A stretch of DNA of 64,000 nucleotides, taken from assembly GCF_004343705.1 (NCBI RefSeq), contig NZ_SKFH01000004.1:1-64000 (forward strand), read 5' to 3'. The translations under genes were made by a program, and so were the position numbers. Origin of the DNA: Flaviaesturariibacter aridisoli. GTDB taxonomy: Bacteria > Bacteroidota > Bacteroidia > Chitinophagales > Chitinophagaceae. The notes under the pieces are model-generated. The model did not search any database. It was given only the letters and a program-made list of their open reading frames with translations, and was not told where the DNA came from. The stretch's first letter is position 1. The number at the start of each line of letters is the position of its first letter. Below, piece by piece: positions 1 to 9,226 of the stretch.

Positions 1-751
1 TACAAGTTCATTTCCATCTTCTGCAGGGTTCAGATAAACGTGATTATACTTCAGTGACTTCCAGAACCGCTCGATCCAGATGTTGTCCGTTGCCCGTCCT
101 TTTCCATCCATGGATATATTGATTCTGTTCTTTTCCAGGTACTGAGTCCAGCCGGCGCAGGTGTACTGAACGCCCTGATCAGAGTTGATGATCTCCGGCG
201 CTCCATGCTCCGCGATCGCCTCCTGCAGCACCTCCAGGCACCAGCGCGCCGCCAGTGAGTTGGAGATGCCCCATCCGACGATCTTGCGGCTATACACGTC
301 GATGATAGCCGTCAGGTACATGAAGCCCCGCCGCATCGGGATATAGGTGATGTCGGTAGACCATACCTGGTTGGGCCGGCTGATATCCAGCCCGCGCAGC
401 AAATACGGCTTTATGAACACCTTCTGGCCCATTTTAGTGAGGTTTCGTCTGCGGTAGATGGTTTGGTGACCCAGGAGTCGGAACAGCCGCCGGACGCGCT
501 TTGGACCAACCGGATAGCCACGGTCGCGCAGCAGGTGCACCACCGATAAGACCCCTTCGGTTGGGTGTTCCAAGAGGTGGTGGTCCATGAGCTGCATCAT
601 TTTCAGATTCTCGGGCTTCTCCGGGCGCGGCTTGTAATAGATCCGGCTGCGGTTCACCGCCAGCAGGGCGCACTGCCGGCGTACCGACAGCTTCCTGGAG
701 CGGGGCTGCACCAGTGAGGCACGCGTCGTCAGATCCCCAGTTTCCTGCAAC
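1..751 (-). CDS. IS3-family transposase OrfB (DDE integrase domain), partial
   Basis: Translated by hand in the -1 frame relative to OrfA, because no good ATG sits at its beginning. It is expected to be made as an OrfAB fusion by frameshifting at the A8 run. The retroviral-type integrase core is intact: the first Asp is in TDITYI (codon at 352-354), the second in NSDQGVQYT (178-180), and the Glu in IERFWKSLKY (70-72). An N-terminal HTH_21-like segment precedes it. The product cuts and joins the IS ends. The C-terminus is lost at the window edge, so activity of the complete protein cannot be judged. Confidence 0.85.
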
Positions 752-1019
752 TTTTTTTTAGAAACTCATTTTCGACGCGGAGCTGCCCGATCTGGGCATA
801 GAGCTCGCGGGTGTCTACGGGCTCGCCTTCCGTGTCGGAAGACTTTTCAAAAACAGCGCTCATGTTTTCCAGGAACTCCGACTTCCAGCGCGAGATCATC
901 ACGGCGGATACTTCAAATTTTTTGGAGAGCTCAGCGAGGGTTTGCTGGTTCTTGATGGCTTCCAGTGCTACTTTAGCCTTGAACGCGGGGGTGAATTTGC
1001 GGCGGGTCTGCTTCTTCAT
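729..1019 (-). CDS. IS3-family transposase OrfA (HTH protein)
   Basis: A 96-residue protein starting MKKQTRRKFTPAFKAKVALE, the typical IS3/IS911 OrfA opening. The N-terminal half is a helix-turn-helix that binds the IS ends (LAELSKKFEVSAVMISRWK). The C-terminal half is a short leucine-zipper-like coiled coil (YAQIGQLRVENEFLKK) used for multimerisation. The stop codon lies just after the A8 frameshift run at 752-759. OrfA alone is normally regulatory, and the OrfAB fusion is the transposase. The short size is normal for the family. Confidence 0.9.
   Translation of the reverse strand: MKKQTRRKFTPAFKAKVALEAIKNQQTLAELSKKFEVSAVMISRWKSEFLENMSAVFEKSSDTEGEPVDTRELYAQIGQLRVENEFLKKSCRKLGI
752..759 (-). 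promoter_or_regulatory. A8 slippery site for -1 programmed frameshift
   Basis: The minus strand reads eight A's (CTA AAA AAA AGT in the OrfA frame). A -1 slip here leaves OrfA seven codons before its TGA and enters the OrfB frame without interruption. Runs of this kind are the known frameshift signal in IS3-family elements. Confidence 0.75.
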
Positions 1020-1070
1020 TTGAGGTAGTTAAAAGTACATCCTTTCTTAACTTAACCTCTGGTTTCAAAT

Positions 1071-1940
1071 TCAGGGAGCATTATAATCATCATTGTAGTA
1101 ATCGTTACCTAATAGGCTTACAGGGTTTTCATAAACAGACGGCTTTCTATCGAATAAACGCAAATACCCTTCATAGAACTTATTGATATGCACAGCCGCG
1201 TTATTTCGGAAAAAAGCCACCGCTTCTACTTCTGAAATAGCTCTGTACTCTTTCTGCAGCTCCTGCTGCTTCATCCAATTTTCATTAAATGGCACCCATG
1301 GCCCAAGAATAGCCTTTTTTGAGTAACCATGGATTACAAGTTCTCTTCCACAATGTTCGCATATATAGCAACTATGCTCTTCTTCTTTTCGTTGAATAAC
1401 ATCGTTTCGTTGTGTAGCTAAACATCCATGTATGTATAGTTTATAACGTTCTATTTTTAGTCGAGAAGCCACCTTGCTATCAATTGTGTACAAGGAAGTA
1501 TCATCTGGAAATTCTTGAATGACAATGCAGTTTGAATCAATAAAATGTCCTCCAGTTAAAAGCAAACTTCCATTGCCTCTACGCACAAAATCAAAGTCTT
1601 CAGAACCTCTATAGGTTGACCCTTCATAGAAATACTCCCTCGACCTGTAGTATAAATGTCGAAGCGACAAATAGTAGTATCTTTTGTACAGCTCATTAAC
1701 ATCCCCAATACCGCCAAACAAACTTTCGTTCAGGGCAGCGAACTTTCTTATTTCCAACCTCTTTTCTTTTGCATCCAGCTTGCACAAAGAAGCTAAGGAA
1801 GAAAACGCCTGCATTGAGTGGTAAAAATAGTTGCCAACATATTCTTGCGATGAGTGCCTGATAAAGCTATCCGTCGACTTAATAGCATTATCTAATGCGT
1901 CTGAATTAAAAAAATGTTCTTTGCTGAGCTTTTTTTCCAT
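1071..1940 (-). CDS. Hypothetical protein with a cysteine cluster
   Basis: Not recognised. 289 residues, rich in Tyr, Arg and Lys and more AT-rich than the core genes. Residues 85-110 are an aromatic basic stretch (KRYYYLSLRHLYYRSREYF). A small cysteine cluster CYICEHCG (C191, C194, C197), with C173 nearby, could bind a metal. I see no signal peptide and no membrane segment, so it is probably cytoplasmic. The stop codon may be supplied by the end of the adjacent IS, so the native C-terminus could be longer. It is alone on its strand between the IS and the divergent recombinase gene. Function unknown; cargo of the integrated element is the best description. Confidence 0.6.
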   Translation of the reverse strand: MEKKLSKEHFFNSDALDNAIKSTDSFIRHSSQEYVGNYFYHSMQAFSSLASLCKLDAKEKRLEIRKFAALNESLFGGIGDVNELYKRYYYLSLRHLYYRSREYFYEGSTYRGSEDFDFVRRGNGSLLLTGGHFIDSNCIVIQEFPDDTSLYTIDSKVASRLKIERYKLYIHGCLATQRNDVIQRKEEEHSCYICEHCGRELVIHGYSKKAILGPWVPFNENWMKQQELQKEYRAISEVEAVAFFRNNAAVHINKFYEGYLRLFDRKPSVYENPVSLLGNDYYNDDYNAP

Positions 1941-2193
1941 GACACGTTTTGTTCAGATCAGGTTTTGGATCTCAATTACACTGTTGGACGGAGTACAATT
2001 TAAAAAAACTATCGATTGGACAGGGTTTAACCATTTTCCTTTCCTCACAGTAAAGGTTTGTAGTGTATTGAGTAGGTCTAAGTAGAGTTGGCCTTTTTGA
2101 TAGAGGCAGTGTTGTCGGTGTCTGTAAAGAAAACGACCGATTAAATGCCTTGACATGATAGGAAGGTTACCCAACGAGGAATCAGGCGTTACC

Positions 2194-2213
2194 GAGTAAA
2201 TTTACTCAGTAAA
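2194..2213. repeat. Overlapping palindromes upstream of the recombinase gene
   Basis: GAGTAAATTTACTC (2194-2207) is a perfect 14-bp palindrome. It overlaps TTTACTCAGTAAA (2201-2213), a second palindrome with a central C. The site is about 60 bp upstream of the serine recombinase start, where resolvase binding sites or an autoregulatory operator would be expected. Confidence 0.5.
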
Positions 2214-2234
2214 TTAATCTACGTAAAGAATTGG

Positions 2235-2242
2235 TATATTTG
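2235..2242 (+). promoter_or_regulatory. Putative -7 box (TATATTTG) for the recombinase gene
   Basis: Matches the Bacteroidota consensus TAnnTTTG, 29 nt before the ATG at 2272. No convincing -33 TTTG was seen at the right distance. Confidence 0.4.
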
Positions 2243-2271
2243 GATGAGTTGTTTTACTAAAACCCATCCAT

Positions 2272-2832
2272 ATGCTAATTGGCTACGCACGTGTCTCCAC
2301 CCAAGACCAAGTTCACCATCTGCAAACCGACGCTCTCACCGCAGCTGGCTGCGAGAAGATCTTCACCGACAAAGTGAGTGGTACGGTTGCTGAACGCCCT
2401 GGGCTTTCGAAGGTCAAAGAGCAACTGCGAAAGGGCGACACTCTTGTAATCTGGAGGCTGGATCGACTGGCGCGGTCTTTACAGGATCTGATCACCTGGA
2501 TGAAGTACTTGGAGGGGGAGGGTATAGCCCTAAAGAGCCTTCAAGAGAATATTGATACCTCAACGGCTACTGGCAAATTAGTCTTCCACATATTTGGCGC
2601 CCTATCTGAGTTCGAGCGTTCTCTGGTGGTGGAACGCACGCGACATGGCCTTGCAGCAGCAAGAGCAAGGGGTCGGGTAGGGGGGAGACCGAAAGCATTG
2701 GACAAGGATAAGCGGCAATTGGCCGTCAACCTTTACAATGAGAAGAAGCATTCAGTGGAGAAGGTTTGCCAGTTGGTTGGAATTTCAAAGCCCACCTTAT
2801 ATAAAATAGTGCGCGAGGCACAAGGGGGGTGA
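2272..2832 (+). CDS. Serine recombinase (resolvase/invertase family)
   Basis: 186 residues, the normal size of a small serine recombinase. The N-terminal catalytic domain begins MLIGYARVSTQDQ with the nucleophile Ser9. WRLDRLARS (61-69) supplies the conserved active-site arginines. The dimerisation helix region follows (GALSEFERSLVVERTR). Residues 140-186 form a C-terminal helix-turn-helix (VCQLVGISKPTLYKIV) that reads the DNA site. The family cuts and rejoins DNA by a phosphoserine intermediate, for resolution or inversion. Palindromes at 2194-2213 are candidate target or operator sites. I see no partner transposase of the Tn3 type here, so its role in this element is unclear. Confidence 0.9.
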   Translation: MLIGYARVSTQDQVHHLQTDALTAAGCEKIFTDKVSGTVAERPGLSKVKEQLRKGDTLVIWRLDRLARSLQDLITWMKYLEGEGIALKSLQENIDTSTATGKLVFHIFGALSEFERSLVVERTRHGLAAARARGRVGGRPKALDKDKRQLAVNLYNEKKHSVEKVCQLVGISKPTLYKIVREAQGG

Positions 2833-3059
2833 GATAAATCATTACGTCCCACTTCTGAGTTTCTTCTCCATTCGGTTGAATTAATGCCTTTAGCTCAGAC
2901 TTTTTGTGGGGCGATTTGCTTGTAGTGCAATGCCAGAGCGGTTTTCTGAAGAATTGCCGATTCTTTGACCGCGGTAAATTAGTATGCTAATCAGCTTCTT
3001 TTTACCCCTTTTTTCTGTGGTTTTGAAGGGTTTTGCCCTGTGGAATTGGAAACTTGGCT

Positions 3060-3083
3060 TTGCAAAAGTTGCAAACTTTGCAA
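3060..3083. repeat. Triple TTGCAA site, copy B
   Basis: TTGCAA hexamers begin at 3060, 3069 and 3078, an exact 9-bp spacing. The site lies about 55 bp beyond the 3' end of the primase-like gene. It matches the spacing of the site at 5362-5385 on the other side of the same gene. It may be an iteron or operator. Confidence 0.6.
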
Positions 3084-3098
3084 CGGGGGAGAGGAGAA

Positions 3099-3118
3099 AA
3101 GGCCACTTGTGTGGCCTT
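3099..3118 (-). terminator. Hairpin terminator of the VirE-N/DUF3987 gene
   Basis: AAGGCCAC and GTGGCCTT form a perfect 8-bp stem with a 4-nt loop. On the minus strand it is followed by TTCTCC, so it is a weak intrinsic terminator about 20 bp after the stop codon. Confidence 0.5.
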
Positions 3119-3137
3119 CCATCACATATGGGAGTAG

Positions 3138-5330
3138 TCAAACCTTTTGGTATGTACCGTTCCCCTCCTTAGACAACTTACCTTCATCAACAAGTAGCTT
3201 CAAGTAGCTATCCGCCGTTCTGGGCTTAATTTTGAGCGTGCTGGCTTTTTCAACAGCTTCAGCCCTGGAGAAGCTTTGTGGTAATACTTTAAAAAGCTTG
3301 TTCAGGAGGGGGTTTTTAACAGCGTCCGATTTCTTCGGCAACCTGCTCATTACTACAAAGGCATGATGTAATACTGTTTCAACGATCTTCTCAGAAAGTC
3401 CGAAATCCAGTTCACTACATAAGTAATTTGGTTTGACGTCTTCAGTGTCGTACTGCCTAAGGGCAGAAAGGATCATAGCAATTCGGTAGCGGATCAACCC
3501 CATTCGGTTGATCACACTTTGTCTGTATGCATCCTCGCCATAAATGATACGGTAAAAGGAGGTTAGCATGTCGAAGTAATCATTATGTCTATCCCATTGG
3601 GAGGAGCTGAAATGGAACTCTGTTCTGTTCTCTTCATGGAATTTGATGATGTCCATCACCTTCAAAGAGAGTGCTTTGAAAAAATCGTCCCTATTGGCGA
3701 CCTTCTTACCAGGTGAAACATCCTTCCAGTGCACTGCTTCCTCAAAAATATAGTACATGAATCGACTGAATAGACCGTCCTCTATTGATCTCACTAATCC
3801 TTGAAGCTGCGAAGGGGTGCCAGAAATCGCAATTGATAAGCGGGGTTGGTGTAATTCATTCAGGCCGCCCTTGCCTTTTCTGTTAATGCCAACCCATTCA
3901 TGATGGAATCCCCCGCGCATAATTTCGGAATACGACCCCCAATCCTGCTTTAGCGATGAGGAGATTGTGTCTGCTTCTGTTTCGAATAGCATTACGCGTT
4001 CTTGCGATTGCACCATCCTTTCGATAAATGCGGCCGACGATGAATTGCCAGGTATATAAAAGATCATTTGTTTCGGCTCGATTGGAAGGTCCATCTTTTC
4101 TATTCCATCAATGCCTTTATTTGCCCTGTACTCCATCAATTGCTCTTCGTACTCCGCCATCGCCTTTCGGCCTTCCTCTACCAACCTATTATGGTATTCC
4201 TGGCCCAGAGCTTTAGACTGGACCAAGATTCCTTTGCCACTGGCAGGCGGTGCAATAATGAAAACATACAAGTTGGGATAGACGGTTTTACCATCGTAAT
4301 TGCCCCAGAAGTTGATAAGACAGCCACTGAATACGCCCAAACTGGACAAGAAAAGCATATCTCGCTCCCTGCTGTTGGTGATTACTTCCGTAGCCCTTTT
4401 GAGAATTTGAGGCAGGTCTTGATAGACTTCATCTCGCAAGAATGGGGTGGCTCTTAGGCTAAATTGCCCATCAAGGACGCTCAATTTAAAAAACGATGGC
4501 ATGCTATCGAACTCGTCAGCATTGATGTATGCGCTTTCAATTGCTTTGAATGTTTCACCTTCATCAAGGTCAAATTGTGTTGGTATATAGCGTTCAACTT
4601 CCCGCTGTTCAATGCCAAACTTATTGCAAAGGCATGCAAGTTTGAAGATGTAATTATTCCGATTACCCACTTGGTATTGCTCCCGCTGGTCCAAGTACGC
4701 TGCGCAAGCATCAATTAACGTTTCAAAGGCGGATGGTTCTTCACCGCTATTGACTTCGTATCTCTCGCCTTCACCTGTAGAAGGAAGATTATCAAAACAG
4801 AAGGTTTCTGCGTTTGGATTGTAGTATGCATCAGGATCATGGGATAGAAAGCATAGCCGTGCAATATCTTTTCCCGAAGGATCAACACTAAGAGCTGTTG
4901 CTTTTTCGTAATGTATGGCGACTTGCCTGAAGCTATTTTCGTGACTCTCCTTTTCTCCATTGGTTTTTACCAGGACTTTAATGCCCTGTCCAGATGGACT
5001 TTTGAAAGAAAATAGCGTGAAGGGTATGCTCTGTAGGTATACCAAAGCTTCGGTAACGTCTTCCACATGATCAAAATCCAGAACGACGATTTGGCTGTAG
5101 GAATGGAGATTCTCTTTCTTTCTGTATTCCTTGAATACTCCTGAAGGAATGAAAGCAGGTAGCTTTTTCTTCAATGTCGAAGCATCCTCTTTGTTGCCCA
5201 ACGCAATCAATTCGCGAAGCTTCTTGATATGTTCGTAAACAGTTCCTTCTCGGACCAGCCTCACGAGTTCGTTGATTGAAACCTCTCCTTCGGTTTCGAC
5301 CAGGTTCTTGACTAAACTAAATAGGATCAT
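3138..5330 (-). CDS. VirE-N (BT4734-like) and DUF3987 protein, primase/helicase-like
   Basis: 730 residues with two parts. Residues 55-185 match the BT4734/BF3469 N-terminal type: an acidic LDFDHV (D85, D87), then SPSGQGIKVLV and DPSGKDIARLCFLSHDPD, features resembling archaeo-eukaryotic primase-like active sites. Residues 290-660 match DUF3987, with a Walker A motif APPASGKG (360-367) and later SGTPSQLQGLV and GLFSRFMYY, as in helicase-like ATPases. A short winged-helix-like tail ends the protein. Such genes are common on Bacteroidota mobile elements and are thought to act in element replication, though this is not proven. It is flanked by matching TTGCAA triple sites and by a palindrome 32 bp upstream of the start, which suggests origin or operator function. 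Confidence 0.85.
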   Translation of the reverse strand: MILFSLVKNLVETEGEVSINELVRLVREGTVYEHIKKLRELIALGNKEDASTLKKKLPAFIPSGVFKEYRKKENLHSYSQIVVLDFDHVEDVTEALVYLQSIPFTLFSFKSPSGQGIKVLVKTNGEKESHENSFRQVAIHYEKATALSVDPSGKDIARLCFLSHDPDAYYNPNAETFCFDNLPSTGEGERYEVNSGEEPSAFETLIDACAAYLDQREQYQVGNRNNYIFKLACLCNKFGIEQREVERYIPTQFDLDEGETFKAIESAYINADEFDSMPSFFKLSVLDGQFSLRATPFLRDEVYQDLPQILKRATEVITNSRERDMLFLSSLGVFSGCLINFWGNYDGKTVYPNLYVFIIAPPASGKGILVQSKALGQEYHNRLVEEGRKAMAEYEEQLMEYRANKGIDGIEKMDLPIEPKQMIFYIPGNSSSAAFIERMVQSQERVMLFETEADTISSSLKQDWGSYSEIMRGGFHHEWVGINRKGKGGLNELHQPRLSIAISGTPSQLQGLVRSIEDGLFSRFMYYIFEEAVHWKDVSPGKKVANRDDFFKALSLKVMDIIKFHEENRTEFHFSSSQWDRHNDYFDMLTSFYRIIYGEDAYRQSVINRMGLIRYRIAMILSALRQYDTEDVKPNYLCSELDFGLSEKIVETVLHHAFVVMSRLPKKSDAVKNPLLNKLFKVLPQSFSRAEAVEKASTLKIKPRTADSYLKLLVDEGKLSKEGNGTYQKV

Positions 5331-5361
5331 GGTTTTGATCTTTGGCAGGCAATAGTCGGCC

Positions 5362-5385
5362 TTGCAAACATTGCAATGTTTGCAA
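5362..5385. repeat. Triple TTGCAA site, copy A (perfect 24-bp palindrome)
   Basis: TTGCAA hexamers begin at 5362, 5371 and 5380, again 9 bp apart, and the whole 24 bp is its own reverse complement. It sits 32 bp upstream of the primase-like start codon, so it could be an operator or part of a replication origin. Confidence 0.65.
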
Positions 5386-5485
5386 AAGCCCTTTCCCTAC
5401 TATGTTAGTGTATTAATAATGCCCCGTGCTCCTTTGCCAGATTGGAGTCACTTTAAAAACAGGCTGATGCGAAGGGGAAGAAAGT

Positions 5486-5514
5486 GCAGCTGGTACAATC
5501 ACGAAGCCAGCTGC
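5486..5514 (-). terminator. Hairpin after the 5523-6113 gene
   Basis: GCAGCTGG (5486-5493) pairs perfectly with CCAGCTGC (5507-5514). It lies just downstream of the stop codon of the leftward gene and is followed on that strand by ACTTTCTTCC, so it is a weak terminator or attenuator ahead of the primase-like gene. Confidence 0.4.
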
Positions 5515-5522
5515 GGCTTTCA

Positions 5523-6113
5523 TTAAGCGCGAATTTCAATCTTGTGGTCACCAGAGTTGATATCAGCATAAAAGTTATCGACCGTGTAATCCAAGACATC
5601 CTGAAGGTCGTTGAATCGGCCACCAGATAGAACCAGTTCGATTACTTCATCTCCAGAAGACTTCGAGATTGTGACTTCGCCATCATCTTTTGAAGTTCCT
5701 TTCTGAAGGAGAAATTCACCTTTCCAAAGGAGTAGGCCCCCTTTTTCAAATTCTTCAAACAGGGTCTCCACTGGCCAATGGATGAAATCGTTACCCAGTA
5801 GGTCTTCGAAATAGTCCTTGTTTATATACAGCCCCATGTCAAATGTTGAACATTCGACTGTATAGTAGATAATTGTCTTGCCACATTCTGGGCAAAATCG
5901 ACGTCGCCTACATAGTGTTAACCCGTGTTGGTTCATGTAGATTTCTTGCCTGAGGCTCTTTGGCACAAGCTCTCTGACCATTTCTGTTGTTTTCCTTAGT
6001 AGAAGGGGGGCATGACTCTCTGATCCGTTCATGTTACGAATTGTTTTTGTTTTTAGGTTTTTAGAAAAGTGTTTAAGTTGAAGTGTTCGGACGCAAGAGT
6101 TCCATTCACTCAT
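5523..6113 (-). CDS. Hypothetical protein with a zinc-ribbon-like cysteine cluster
   Basis: Not recognised. 196 residues from the first ATG; a second in-frame ATG at 6032 (MNGSESHAPL) would remove 27 residues of basic, low-complexity sequence and may be the true start. Cysteines C68, C74 and C77 in LCRRRRFCPECGKTI look like a half zinc ribbon. The C-terminal part is acidic (FEEFEKGGLLLWKGEF, DDLQDVLDYTVDN-like). No signal peptide or membrane segment. It lies upstream of and co-oriented with the primase-like gene, 192 bp away, separated by a hairpin and the TTGCAA palindrome. A small DNA-binding or regulatory protein of the element is possible but unproven. Confidence 0.6.
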   Translation of the reverse strand: MSEWNSCVRTLQLKHFSKNLKTKTIRNMNGSESHAPLLLRKTTEMVRELVPKSLRQEIYMNQHGLTLCRRRRFCPECGKTIIYYTVECSTFDMGLYINKDYFEDLLGNDFIHWPVETLFEEFEKGGLLLWKGEFLLQKGTSKDDGEVTISKSSGDEVIELVLSGGRFNDLQDVLDYTVDNFYADINSGDHKIEIRA

Positions 6114-6701
6114 TTTGCTGAATGGAATGTCCAGTTAGTGAGTTTGTCTCGCATACTAAGATGTAGTAGATATATGCCCTATAACTTGAGATAAGGTCAG
6201 GTAGACATTCTCCGACGAAAGCCATTTAACTACAGGCTTAGGACACAAAGTTGAAAGGATGCTAAGCGGTAACTCAACTGCTGGTTGAAATTACTGTTTA
6301 TCTTATTTTATGGGTTAATATTTCTCTTTACATAGCGTTCGATTTTGATAGATCAAAAGTACGAACCAAGCACATTCTATCCAAATCTGAAAATGGCAAA
6401 AACATTCATAACTCATTGATTGATACCACCAAACATACGCATGTTTTTAATAATATGTACGTCAATTTCGTAATGTAACAGCAGTTGGAAATCAACAAAT
6501 TGAGGTCGCTTACGAGCGCATTGTTGATCACTTTTGAAATCCGTGGTTGAAATTTCGCCGTACAAAACTCTGTTTTTACGTGTTTGTAATCGCTTGATTA
6601 TCAATAAAAAAATTTTTAGGAGATTTTTCTTCGCTGGTTCTTTGTCAGATGTCAACGACCTGTCCATAAGAGTGATCGCTGATTCATGTATTTAAAAAGT
6701 C
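6114..6701. other. AT-rich non-coding stretch, 588 bp
   Basis: I see no convincing gene. One 84-codon minus-strand frame (6413-6667) starts 34 nt after the integrase stop, but it has no Shine-Dalgarno or promoter and no family resemblance. The region could hold the accessory binding sites or an origin of the element, but no repeat stands out by eye. Confidence 0.5.
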
Positions 6702-7859
6702 TTAATGATCTTGGTCGGATCCTTTTCTTAAATCTGGCACCGAACTCGGTAAGCTCACTTGGTGGGTGTAGGTTCTTAGCGTAGTTATGGGGTTATTGCC
6801 GAGCAAAAAGGCGGTCATCACTGGTGTTAGACCAGCGTCAATGCAGCGGCTTCCAAATGTGTGTCTGCAAGCATACAGGTCCCGATCCTCAATGTTCAAA
6901 GCCTTCAAGATGGGTTTAAATACCCGTCGCTGGAACATGCGATCATCGATGGCATGCCCTTTCGGGGAGTAGAACACCAAGTCGTCAGGCTGCTTGTGAG
7001 CCATCTGGAGCGCCAGGATCGCCGCCAAATCAGGAGAGAGTGGGATGGCCCTCTCTTTCCCGTTCTTGGTGGTTTTTCGTACGCGCACGCCTGCATTCGT
7101 GCTGGTAATCCCGCGGGCCAGCACTTCGTTGATCAGCACTACCTTCCGCTGCATGTCAATGGATTTTACGCGAAGGCCGACAGCTTCAGCGTTGCGCACG
7201 CCAGTGGCGAAAATGAAGTACAGGAACGGGTAGTAGTGGGAGTGTTTGAACCGAGAGCTGGCAGGACACGCAGAGTCGGTTCTAACTGCCTCCAGGATCT
7301 GATGGATCTCATTCTCGGTGAACGGGACCCTCTTGCGGTTCTGGGCTTTCGACGTGCGCTTCGGACGCACCTGTTCGAATGGGTTCTGCAAAACCTTCCC
7401 GCTATCCTTCAACCAGGAGTAGAACTTGGACAGCATCGTCAGCCGACGGTTGTACGTCCGTTCGTTGATCTTCTCCGCGTTGAAGTGTTTTACTGCATCT
7501 GGAAGATGAAAGTTTCCCCAACGCTTCACCATGTTGCGGAGCGCCCAGTAATCTACTTGCTTTTCGCAGTCGCGATTGAGGTAGTCGGTCACCCACTCTT
7601 CCAAAAGTTGGTGGGGCAGAAGGTGTCGCGGAGCGTTACGGACCTGGCCTTGGCCGTAACGCGTGAGCGTTACGTCGAAGGAACCGTTAAGTATGTCCGA
7701 CTCGATCTGCACCGCGACCTTACGGGCAAGTTTGAGGTTAGGGGCGGAATAAGTATACAGGTTCAGCGAGTATCGCTTACCTCCATATCTCCACCTCAGC
7801 CTTATCCTGTTCTTGTCTTGATCGATACTGACCGAACCTTTTAAATTTCTGCGACCCAT
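6702..7859 (-). CDS. Tyrosine-type site-specific integrase
   Basis: 385 residues. Residues 1-70 form an arm-type DNA-binding domain (KNRIRLRWRYGGKRYSLNLY), 80-165 a SAM-like core-binding domain, and 175-370 the catalytic domain. Catalytic Arg222 is in ATGVRNAEAVGL, Arg332 in YACRHTFGSR, and the nucleophile Tyr364 in TTLRTYTH. Two usual catalytic positions differ: the His of HxxR is Tyr329, and the His/Trp before the Tyr is Asn355 (LLGNN). It catalyses integration and excision through a 3'-phosphotyrosine. It is the first gene inside the tRNA-Pro boundary, which points to this tRNA as its attachment site. Two TGCGACCCA direct repeats lie at its start codon. Confidence 0.92.
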   Translation of the reverse strand: MGRRNLKGSVSIDQDKNRIRLRWRYGGKRYSLNLYTYSAPNLKLARKVAVQIESDILNGSFDVTLTRYGQGQVRNAPRHLLPHQLLEEWVTDYLNRDCEKQVDYWALRNMVKRWGNFHLPDAVKHFNAEKINERTYNRRLTMLSKFYSWLKDSGKVLQNPFEQVRPKRTSKAQNRKRVPFTENEIHQILEAVRTDSACPASSRFKHSHYYPFLYFIFATGVRNAEAVGLRVKSIDMQRKVVLINEVLARGITSTNAGVRVRKTTKNGKERAIPLSPDLAAILALQMAHKQPDDLVFYSPKGHAIDDRMFQRRVFKPILKALNIEDRDLYACRHTFGSRCIDAGLTPVMTAFLLGNNPITTLRTYTHQVSLPSSVPDLRKGSDQDH

Positions 7860-7920
7860 TTGCGACCCAATTTTGAACGAAATGGATCATTCAGTAGGTA
7901 ACCAGGCTCGCTATACCATC

Positions 7921-7964
7921 AAAAAAAAGAAGCGGAAACGTAAGCCTGTGCTACATTTCCGCTT
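7921..7964 (-). terminator. Intrinsic terminator downstream of tRNA-Pro
   Basis: AAGCGGAAA (7930-7938) pairs with TTTCCGCTT (7956-7964). On the minus strand the stem is followed by CTTTTTTTT. It ends tRNA-Pro transcription before the integrase. Because it lies past the tRNA 3' end, it may be brought in by the integrated element. Confidence 0.7.
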
Positions 7965-7974
7965 TCTATGTTCG

Positions 7975-8020
7975 TCGGGTGGACTGGATTCGAACCAGCG
8001 ACCCCTTGCACCCCATGCAA
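7975..8020. other. Candidate attachment site in the 3' half of tRNA-Pro
   Basis: Inferred from position: integrases of this kind use the tRNA T-arm and 3' end as the core, and the integrase gene abuts it. A repeat of this sequence at the far end of the element would define the exact core, but it is not in the window. Confidence 0.4.
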
Positions 8021-8048
8021 GTGCGCTACCGGGCTGCGCCACCACCCG
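7975..8048 (-). tRNA. tRNA-Pro(GGG)
   Basis: The minus strand folds as a full tRNA. The acceptor CGGGTGG pairs with CCACCCG, followed by an A discriminator. The D-arm is GCGCAGCCCGGTAGCGC. The anticodon stem-loop CTTGC-ATGGGGT-GCAAG gives anticodon GGG. The T-loop is GGTTCGAATCC. The CCA end is not encoded. A TAAATTTG promoter box lies 47 nt upstream. Confidence 0.93.
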
Positions 8049-8095
8049 AACCGGGTATTCGTTGAAACGTCTTGCGTTGTTTCAGCGACGGGGTG

Positions 8096-8103
8096 CAAAT
8101 TTA
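8096..8103 (-). promoter_or_regulatory. -7 box (TAAATTTG) for tRNA-Pro
   Basis: Matches TAnnTTTG on the minus strand, 47 nt before the tRNA 5' end. Confidence 0.5.
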
Positions 8104-8154
8104 GGGATTTTCGATATTAAAAAGTTCTGCTGAAAGATTTTCTTTGCAGAGATT

Positions 8155-8751
8155 ATGACAAACGAACGCCGCGCCCGCATCGAAGCCGTCCTGTCGAAGC
8201 GTCAGAGCAACCTCACGGTGGTGCTCGAGAACGTATTCGACCCGCACAACATATCCGCCGTGATGCGTAGCTGCGACGCCGTGGGCATACAGGAGATCTA
8301 CGTGCTCAACACCCGCATTCCCCGTCACAAGAAGTTCGGCGACCGCAGTTCCAGCTCCGCCAACAAATGGTTGACAGTGCACCAGTTTACCGATGCCGCC
8401 GCCTGCTTCGCAGAGCTGCGGAGCAAGTACACACGTATATTAACAACGCACCTTTCTTCCGATGCCGTAAGTTTATTCGAGACGGATCTCACCGTACCCA
8501 CTGCCCTTGTGTTCGGCAACGAGCACGCCGGTGTCAGCGAGGAGTTTCTGGCGTTTTCGGACGGCAACTTCATCATCCCACAGGTGGGCATGATCCAGTC
8601 GCTCAACATCAGCGTGGCCTGCGCCGTAACGCTTTATGAAGCGTACCGGCAAAAGTCCGTGGCCGGCCATTATTCCGAATCGGGACTGCGCACCGGGCTC
8701 CAGGAGCAGCTCGCACAACAATGGGGATTGTATGAAGAAAATAATGACTAA
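8155..8751 (+). CDS. trmH: tRNA (guanosine-2'-O)-methyltransferase, TrmH/SpoU family
   Basis: 198 residues. The three SPOUT motifs are present: motif 1 DPHNISAVMRSCDAVG with Asn32 and Arg38, motif 2 LVFGNEHAGVSEE (119-130), and motif 3 IPQVGMIQSLNISVACAV with Asn151 in the trefoil knot. The family transfers a methyl group from S-adenosylmethionine to the 2'-OH of G18 in the D-loop of tRNA. Length fits TrmH, which lacks the N-terminal extension of 23S rRNA enzymes such as RlmB. Its stop overlaps the next gene by 20 bp, so the two are likely translated from one message. Exact tRNA targets cannot be read from sequence. Confidence 0.88.
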   Translation: MTNERRARIEAVLSKRQSNLTVVLENVFDPHNISAVMRSCDAVGIQEIYVLNTRIPRHKKFGDRSSSSANKWLTVHQFTDAAACFAELRSKYTRILTTHLSSDAVSLFETDLTVPTALVFGNEHAGVSEEFLAFSDGNFIIPQVGMIQSLNISVACAVTLYEAYRQKSVAGHYSESGLRTGLQEQLAQQWGLYEENND

Positions 8752-9226
8752 GCTTTTCCTTTGCCTCGCCTTTGCTGCCATCAGCGTCACAGCCGTCGCG
8801 CAAGGCACGGTAGTTCCGAAATGGAAGATCGGCGACCTGGAGCATTACATGGATACGACGTCCGTGCCCACGGTGATCAACTTCTGGGCAACCTTCTGCA
8901 AGCCCTGCATCGCCGAGATCCCGCACTTTCAGGAGCTGACGGCCCAATACAAAAACGAAGGCGTCCGACTGTTGCTGGTAAGCCTCGACCTGCCGGAAGA
9001 TTATAAGAAGATCCCGGCCTTTATGCAAAAGCGCAAGGTCACGGCACCGGTAGCTTTTTTAGATGAGAGCAATGCCGACCTGTTTTGCCCGAAGGTGGAC
9101 AAAAGCTGGTCGGGAGCGCTGCCGGCGACGCTCTTCCTCAACAAGCGCAGCGGTTACCGGCACTTTATAGAGGAACCGCTCACACGAGCGCAGTTGGAAA
9201 ACGAATTGAAGAAATTGGTTCAATAA
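8732..9226 (+). CDS. TlpA-like thioredoxin-fold protein, periplasmic
   Basis: 164 residues from the ATG at 8732, which opens a signal peptide (MKKIMTKLFLCLAFAAISVT, cleavage near AVAQ). Upstream ATG codons in the same frame lie inside trmH and would destroy the signal peptide. The thioredoxin active site is FCKPC (C56, C59) in VINFWATFCKPCIAEIPHF. A cis-Pro occurs in the GALPATLFL segment. The fold is as in TlpA/ResA, which reduce or relay disulfides in the periplasm. It overlaps trmH by 20 bp and is followed by a strong terminator. Substrate unknown. Confidence 0.88.
   Translation: MKKIMTKLFLCLAFAAISVTAVAQGTVVPKWKIGDLEHYMDTTSVPTVINFWATFCKPCIAEIPHFQELTAQYKNEGVRLLLVSLDLPEDYKKIPAFMQKRKVTAPVAFLDESNADLFCPKVDKSWSGALPATLFLNKRSGYRHFIEEPLTRAQLENELKKLVQ

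Follow-up and report, generated by a model that had tools for sequence, protein, structure and literature searches.

Our study identified, in a 64,000-nucleotide stretch of Flaviaesturariibacter aridisoli DNA (contig NZ_SKFH01000004.1; hereafter the window), a fused primase-helicase gene with a triple TTGCAA repeat on each side. In the family of this gene, TTGCAA repeats are conserved at the DNA level, with a period of 9 base pairs (bp), at two places that bracket the helicase-coding segment; where both clusters are present, they are inverted relative to each other. We consider it fairly probable that these repeats are iterons, that the winged helix of the encoded protein recognizes them and that they form the replication origin of a mobile element, although both the binding and the origin activity are inferred from sequence. 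The parts of the window on which the argument turns are the following.

5362..5385, no strand: candidate iteron cluster A, three TTGCAA with a 9-bp period.
3060..3083, no strand: candidate iteron cluster B, three TTGCAA with a 9-bp period.
3138..5330, minus strand: primase-helicase of 730 amino acids (Pfam, AlphaFold2, VIA-align).
4821..5174, minus strand: BT4734-like_N primase domain (PF08800), residues 53-170 (Pfam).
4464..4508, minus strand: disordered interdomain linker, residues 275-289, with a predicted local distance difference test score (pLDDT) <50 (AlphaFold2).
3345..4421, minus strand: DUF3987 helicase domain with the MCM AAA+ fold, residues 304-662 (Pfam, Foldseek, VIA-align).
3141..3317, minus strand: C-terminal winged helix, residues 672-730, the proposed iteron reader (AlphaFold2, structure comparison).

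Both clusters follow the pattern TTGCAA-N3-TTGCAA-N3-TTGCAA, with hexamers starting at 5362, 5371 and 5380 in cluster A and at 3060, 3069 and 3078 in cluster B, and they are separated by 2.28 kb. All 24 bp of cluster A form a perfect palindrome, which lies in the 5' leader on the 5' side of the gene, with 31 bp between its end and the start codon; cluster B is palindromic at 20 of its 24 positions and is located 54 bp beyond the stop codon, the same place as the post-stop cluster of the homologues. An earlier reading made from the letters alone (the sequence-only reading) had given the six hexamer positions, the palindrome upstream of the start codon and the second site just past the gene, and all of these were reproduced. 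A scan of the window allowing up to three mismatches to the 24-mer pattern returned two matches, both exact, against 0.05 expected from dinucleotide shuffles, and clusters A and B are the sole two exact copies in the source assembly (4,374,430 bp in 84 contigs, 95.73% complete). As a single hexamer, TTGCAA is rarer in the window than expected (13 copies against 25); one further lone copy lies within the primase-helicase gene, at 4624. The linker DNA of the window gene has zero TTGCAA, and its first cluster sits upstream of the gene instead.

A pattern-based scan of genome contigs yielded 260 relatives, and the best 80 loci, picked by protein similarity and ranked around L005, a carrier of the triple, were analysed. 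In these loci, the DNA coding for the linker between the primase and helicase domains holds 147 TTGCAA (10.2 per kb) and another 67 (5.7 per kb) fall in the 150 bp immediately past the stop codon, while the remaining regions contain 0.4-1.3 per kb; 23 other palindromic hexamers of equal composition reach at most 0.7 per kb in the linker. After four loci with stops in the matched range were dropped, the remaining 76 were dereplicated at 70% identity into 33 homologue clusters. At least two linker TTGCAA are present in 23 of the 33 and in zero control windows, and at least one post-stop TTGCAA in 14 of the 33, compared with 8.7% of control windows (binomial p 2e-7). The linker pair and the post-stop site occur together in 12 clusters, and one or the other in 25. 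The sequence-only reading had suggested either the iterons of a replication origin or a shared operator, and had named the flanks of homologous genes as the place where absence of the sites would count against it; these 25 clusters do carry sites, which supports that reading. Its flanking layout holds in that the sites are kept with the gene family, but one cluster usually lies in the interdomain linker and not upstream, and its TTGCAA word holds in that the arrangement persists in some lineages, but the word itself varies between lineages. Short direct repeats at a fixed spacing in an initiator locus, a feature of iteron origins, are found here with a 9-bp period at two places. An AT-rich opening region next to the repeats may have a counterpart in the 60 bp that follow the last post-stop TTGCAA, which contain 67.7% AT against a locus mean of 62.4%, the value being higher in 29 of 38 loci.

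The repeats could instead serve an integrase or a host factor as attachment or accessory recombination sites, given that a tyrosine integrase is encoded in the window and in 70 of the 80 loci (some of which have short flanks). However, the repeats go with the primase-helicase gene and are no denser than background in the rest of the loci, the window integrase is a distant relative with about 25% identity to the integrases of two of the loci, and the assembly holds only the two exact triples. We regard recombination sites as very unlikely.

The exact triple was also sought in 576 different genomes (195 of the family and 395 of the phylum, with 14 in both). It is present at seven sites in six of them, two of these sites being those of the window, and five of the seven flank or lie within an intact gene of the primase-helicase family. 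In G060, G141 and G385 the triple is inside the homologous gene, and in G080 it is located about 0.9 kb beyond the stop codon of a broken homologue. The pattern read backwards, which served as a control, was found in one genome only (G403, 13 copies). The region of G080 (L191, 8758-10314) holds the broken gene, a second homologue, followed by the triple and by mobile mystery proteins A and B; an intact homologue is present in the same region.

Many homologues also conserve the linker peptide EFAKFAN.AKLQ, and it could be argued that the linker pattern is this protein motif only and the rest a coincidence. The codons contradict this explanation: in the linker, Phe is encoded by TTT in 65 of 65 cases (904 of 1466 elsewhere in the gene), Ala by GCA in 99 of 117 (617 of 1631) and Lys by AAG in 54 of 72 (475 of 1932), a choice that reveals a constraint at the DNA level. 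The same word also appears in the noncoding DNA after the stop codon, and the clusters of the window are noncoding and stand on both sides of the gene. A protein motif as the whole explanation has hardly any credibility left.

A motif-blind test of periodicity gave 15.1 of 20 matches at 9 bp in the linker against 9.9 elsewhere in the gene; after the stop codon the 9-bp period scored 12.6, and other periods remain at about 9-12. The 8-mer TGCAAAGT was counted in the 76 loci 89 times forward and 20 times reverse in the linker, and 3 times forward and 42 times reverse after the stop codon; by dereplicated cluster, the figures are 15 and 2 in the linker and 0 and 10 after the stop. Where both sets exist, the distance from the linker to the post-stop repeats is 1293-1567 bp, with a median of 1418 (30 loci). 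Inverted clusters are complementary within one transcript, up to 25 nucleotides (nt) in L201, which would suit an RNA-level element: the linker and 3' untranslated region clusters of an mRNA would base-pair and thereby determine how stable it is or how it is translated. Such pairing, however, would not call for a series of short palindromes spaced regularly at 9 bp, and 13 of the 25 positive clusters hold only one of the two repeat sets. An RNA family or terminator at the clusters of the window was considered and rejected: the only Rfam family found in window positions 1-9000 is the tRNA, and a search at clusters A and B found no terminator-like site. Control through RNA pairing appears decidedly improbable.

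Some lineages have other repeat words. The near relatives L089, L090 and L097 carry the variant repeat TTTGCC, L113 carries GTTGCACAA, L085 has TTTGCACA in the linker and TTTGTACA-type repeats after the stop, and in several more distant homologues the stop codon is followed by unrelated repeats of about 9 bp. Of 76 clusters, 10.5% have a strong 9-bp periodicity (at least 15/18) no more than 160 bp from the stop, compared with 0.1% of 1338 control windows; over the whole distribution of these 76 clusters the Mann-Whitney p is 9e-9, with 1e-9 for the 31 close clusters and 0.007 for the 39 distant ones. Judged by the longest match in each cluster, linker and post-stop DNA share longer exact matches than controls do (p 3e-5 in the 31 close clusters and 0.017 in 14 others), and the same test using the segment before the helicase P-loop (67 clusters) gave 0.017 in 13 close and 0.003 in 54 distant clusters. 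Matches of at least 12 nt are present in 11% of the 54 distant clusters and in 2.6% of controls. Ten matches reach at least 11 nt (two close and eight distant) and nine of them are inverted; the eight distant ones span 11-25 nt, seven being inverted. The lengths include 23 nt in L157, 13 in L019 and 12 in both L206 and L211. In L201 (NZ_OY725748.1), the helicase gene and its post-stop DNA share a 25-nt inverted match; here a split BT4734/DUF3987 pair lies amid capsule-type genes, HU and an amidase, and the record, one of two inspected among the matches called plasmids, looks chromosomal. Scanning viral sequences with the family alignment gave nine loci, among which L117 has repeats at both places and the other full or partial loci have no repeats or other words; a viral scan with L202 found no relative.

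The recognition helix offers a further comparison. L085 and L113, whose repeats read GCACA/GTACA, have a lysine at the equivalent of window residue 708 that is found in none other of the 77 aligned, and which may represent one event because the two are sister branches. In the TTTGCC group this residue is Ser or Thr, and Ser also accompanies TTGCAA repeats in L103, L106 and the window protein. These alignments are suggestive of recognition-helix changes that would track the repeat variants.

Pfam, AlphaFold2 and structure comparison together give the chain order primase, MCM-like AAA+ helicase and winged helix. The gathering scores were reached by PF08800 (111.5 bits, cut-off 22.4) and by PF13148, the DUF3987 model, at residues 321-662 (176.6 bits, cut-off 27). 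The top 21 PDB matches of Foldseek are MCM chains or MCM-complex entries, and VIA-align placed residues 304-662 onto MCM AAA+ with a Z of 18.1 (274 residues aligned, root-mean-square deviation 3.7), with MCM-type chains in all 50 rows among the matches listed. The helicase domain is MCM-like by its modelled fold, and ring helicase activity is predicted for it. The winged-helix domain, searched separately, gave no match below E 0.001 and many winged-helix proteins just above. The AlphaFold2 model of the whole protein has a mean pLDDT of 85.3 and a predicted template modelling score of 0.58, a value that leaves the placement of the domains uncertain. The protein has the P4-type architecture, a single chain that combines primase and helicase with a C-terminal winged helix, and its primase domain is BT4734-like rather than of the Toprim type of P4 alpha. 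Against the model of the CRISPR-associated primase-polymerase type B (NF040562), it scored 83.3 bits, below the cut-off of 200, and a search of PDB sequences with the family alignment found no match at E up to 1.

Comparison by blastp and phmmer identified the primase-helicase as the one gene that the window element, as far as it can be followed before it runs off its contig, clearly shares with the 80 loci, which makes it the likeliest reader of the repeats. Its neighbours in the window are these.

6702..7859, minus strand: tyrosine integrase of the element (Pfam).
7974..8048, minus strand: tRNA-Pro beside the integrase (tRNA call).
5523..6113: protein of 196 amino acids between the integrase and the primase-helicase.
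2272..2832, plus strand: serine resolvase, downstream of the primase-helicase gene (Pfam).

The protein at 5523-6113, which had been put forward as a possible binding partner of the sites, is an unlikely one and was rejected as reader: it has no Pfam or NCBIfam match and no relative among the 955 open reading frames of the 80 loci. Because the contig begins at window position 1, the resolvase may or may not belong to the element; a search for a second attachment site of the element gave only tRNA-like matches.

The main rival to an origin is that the clusters are transcriptional operators with no origin role, through which the primase-helicase or a helix-turn-helix (HTH) protein of the element represses its own helicase segment and the next operon. 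It owes this position to the motif TAnnTTTG, which we take to be a promoter-like motif of the Bacteroidetes type, and which is found no more than 110 bp past the post-stop cluster in 28 of 37 loci, compared with 3.8% of 3261 background windows, a contrast that is overstated because those windows are mostly coding DNA. In addition, an Xre regulator is encoded in 37 of the 80 loci, nearly always directly downstream of the primase-helicase, and cluster A of the window lies within the 5' leader. Operators alone fit less well with repeats placed in the middle of a coding sequence in 23 of the 33 clusters, at a distance of some 1.4 kb when the second set is also present, or with their persistence alongside the gene family across varied cargo; moreover, the HTH_17 and Xre genes of the 80 loci have no relative in the window element, save for a weak HTH similarity of its resolvase. 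On balance, an exclusively regulatory role seems unlikely to us, though it deserves serious weight, and origin and operator roles may be combined.

It is important to consider the other observations that, together with TAnnTTTG, weigh against an iteron origin read by the protein. First, the ranking around L005 makes the 80 loci a sample centred on a carrier; 8 of the 33 clusters lack both the linker pair and any post-stop TTGCAA, and the post-stop enrichment is weak in a paired Wilcoxon test (p 0.04). Among the ten full-length homologues that ranked next in the family search (L004-L013), L010, L011 and L012 have neither the linker pair nor any TTGCAA in the 130 bp after the stop, and L013 carries only a single post-stop TTGCAA. 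Second, apart from the window, only the split-gene homologue L157 shows an upstream cluster. Third, the post-stop periodicity does not reach significance in the 6 intermediate clusters (p 0.20), and linker/post-stop matches of at least 11 nt occur in just 8 of the 54 distant and 2 of the 13 close clusters, the match in L011 being of low complexity and that in L144 direct and GC-rich; with 46 of the 54 distant clusters lacking a match, the paired design is seen in a minority of the distant clusters only. Fourth, the triple of G020 (L192, 14616-14639) has mobile mystery protein B as its neighbour, and the 17.7 kb read there contain no homologue; it may be the remnant of a lost element. Finally, the window element runs off the contig, and genes missing from it may be out of view.

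If the repeats are an iteron origin, the following sequence of events can be proposed. The C-terminal winged helix would bind the repeats, one subunit per 9-bp unit, and binding would load the MCM-like AAA+ ring and open the neighbouring DNA; the fused primase would then lay the first primer, and the excised element would replicate. Two inverted clusters may load rings that face each other or, alternatively, a protein bridging both clusters may loop the DNA and so limit copy number. A bolder form of this proposal, which we offer as a speculation more likely wrong than right by a wide measure, is a self-contained cassette of the form iterons, MCM-like helicase, winged helix and inverted iterons, in which a reader would be joined to its own start sites, one of them inside the coding linker; the head-to-head loading of two rings would parallel, in bacteria, the way archaea and eukaryotes load MCM in pairs, and new specificities would arise because the reader and both site clusters travel together.

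The genes of this family were matched in 43 of 195 family genomes and in 55 of 296 phylum genomes, often through one domain only. In the 80 loci, an excisionase-like HTH_17 protein is encoded in 62, DUF6617 in 49, MnmE in 40 and HsdM in 28. These loci (L037-L116, e.g. L193, G141) represent a family of integrative elements, which in 40 of the 80 lie near mnmE; the gene order is HTH, integrase, DUF6617, HTH, HTH, primase-helicase and Xre, followed by defence cargo. PADLOC models applied to ten sampled cargo proteins gave type I, IIG and III restriction-modification, Argonaute, a DISARM-like helicase and PrrC, among others, and Fic is also found among the cargo of the sampled loci.

Several known systems share part of this arrangement. 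To our knowledge, lambda O has no primase or helicase domain, and the MCM-like helicase of SCCmec has no fused BT4734 primase. The satellite phage P4 has a second site, crr. In phage lambda, four 19-bp iterons lie at an origin in the middle of the initiator gene (PMC3985674), so that iterons inside the initiator's own coding sequence are common to both systems; the lambda units measure 19 bp where the period here is 9 bp, and the passages of PMC3985674 on this origin describe no second matched cluster. In P4, the alpha protein binds origin repeats through a winged helix, unwinds and primes (PMC4234260), the same three roles that one protein would play here, where binding is proposed; however, alpha has a bacterial Toprim primase in place of the BT4734-type archaeo-eukaryotic primase and MCM-like AAA+ domain, and in-gene linker iterons matched by an inverted post-stop cluster are not part of the account of P4 in the relevant section of PMC4234260. 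In the Sulfolobus plasmid pRN1 (PMC4234260), the primase-helicase ORF904 likewise has a C-terminal winged helix, and essential origin-like DNA lies directly after its gene; what pRN1 requires there is a 100-bp stem-loop instead of iterons, and its helicase belongs to superfamily 3. SCCmec elements also encode an MCM-like helicase on an integrative island, which is DUF927 (Mir-Sanchis 2016, as cited in PMC5862659). DUF3987 has been predicted to be a helicase of mobile elements and the BT4734-like primase family has been listed among their primase-polymerases (PMC5862659), whose treatment of this family gives no origin or iterons for BT4734/DUF3987. The Vibrio element PLE uses RepA_N and iterons (PMC7145576). 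In the open-licence papers among the matches listed, including those holding TTTGCAAA, we found no earlier description of iterons for BT4734/DUF3987 genes.

Relatives of this gene are common in Bacteroidota, and no origin was found described for them in the open-licence literature searched. The repeats provide a concrete candidate origin, including for the mnmE-adjacent elements that carry restriction, Argonaute and other defence genes, and they supply a rule for finding further candidates, which is to inspect the linker and the DNA just after the stop codon. A bacterial MCM-like putative initiator with short defined sites would also offer a model for ring loading.

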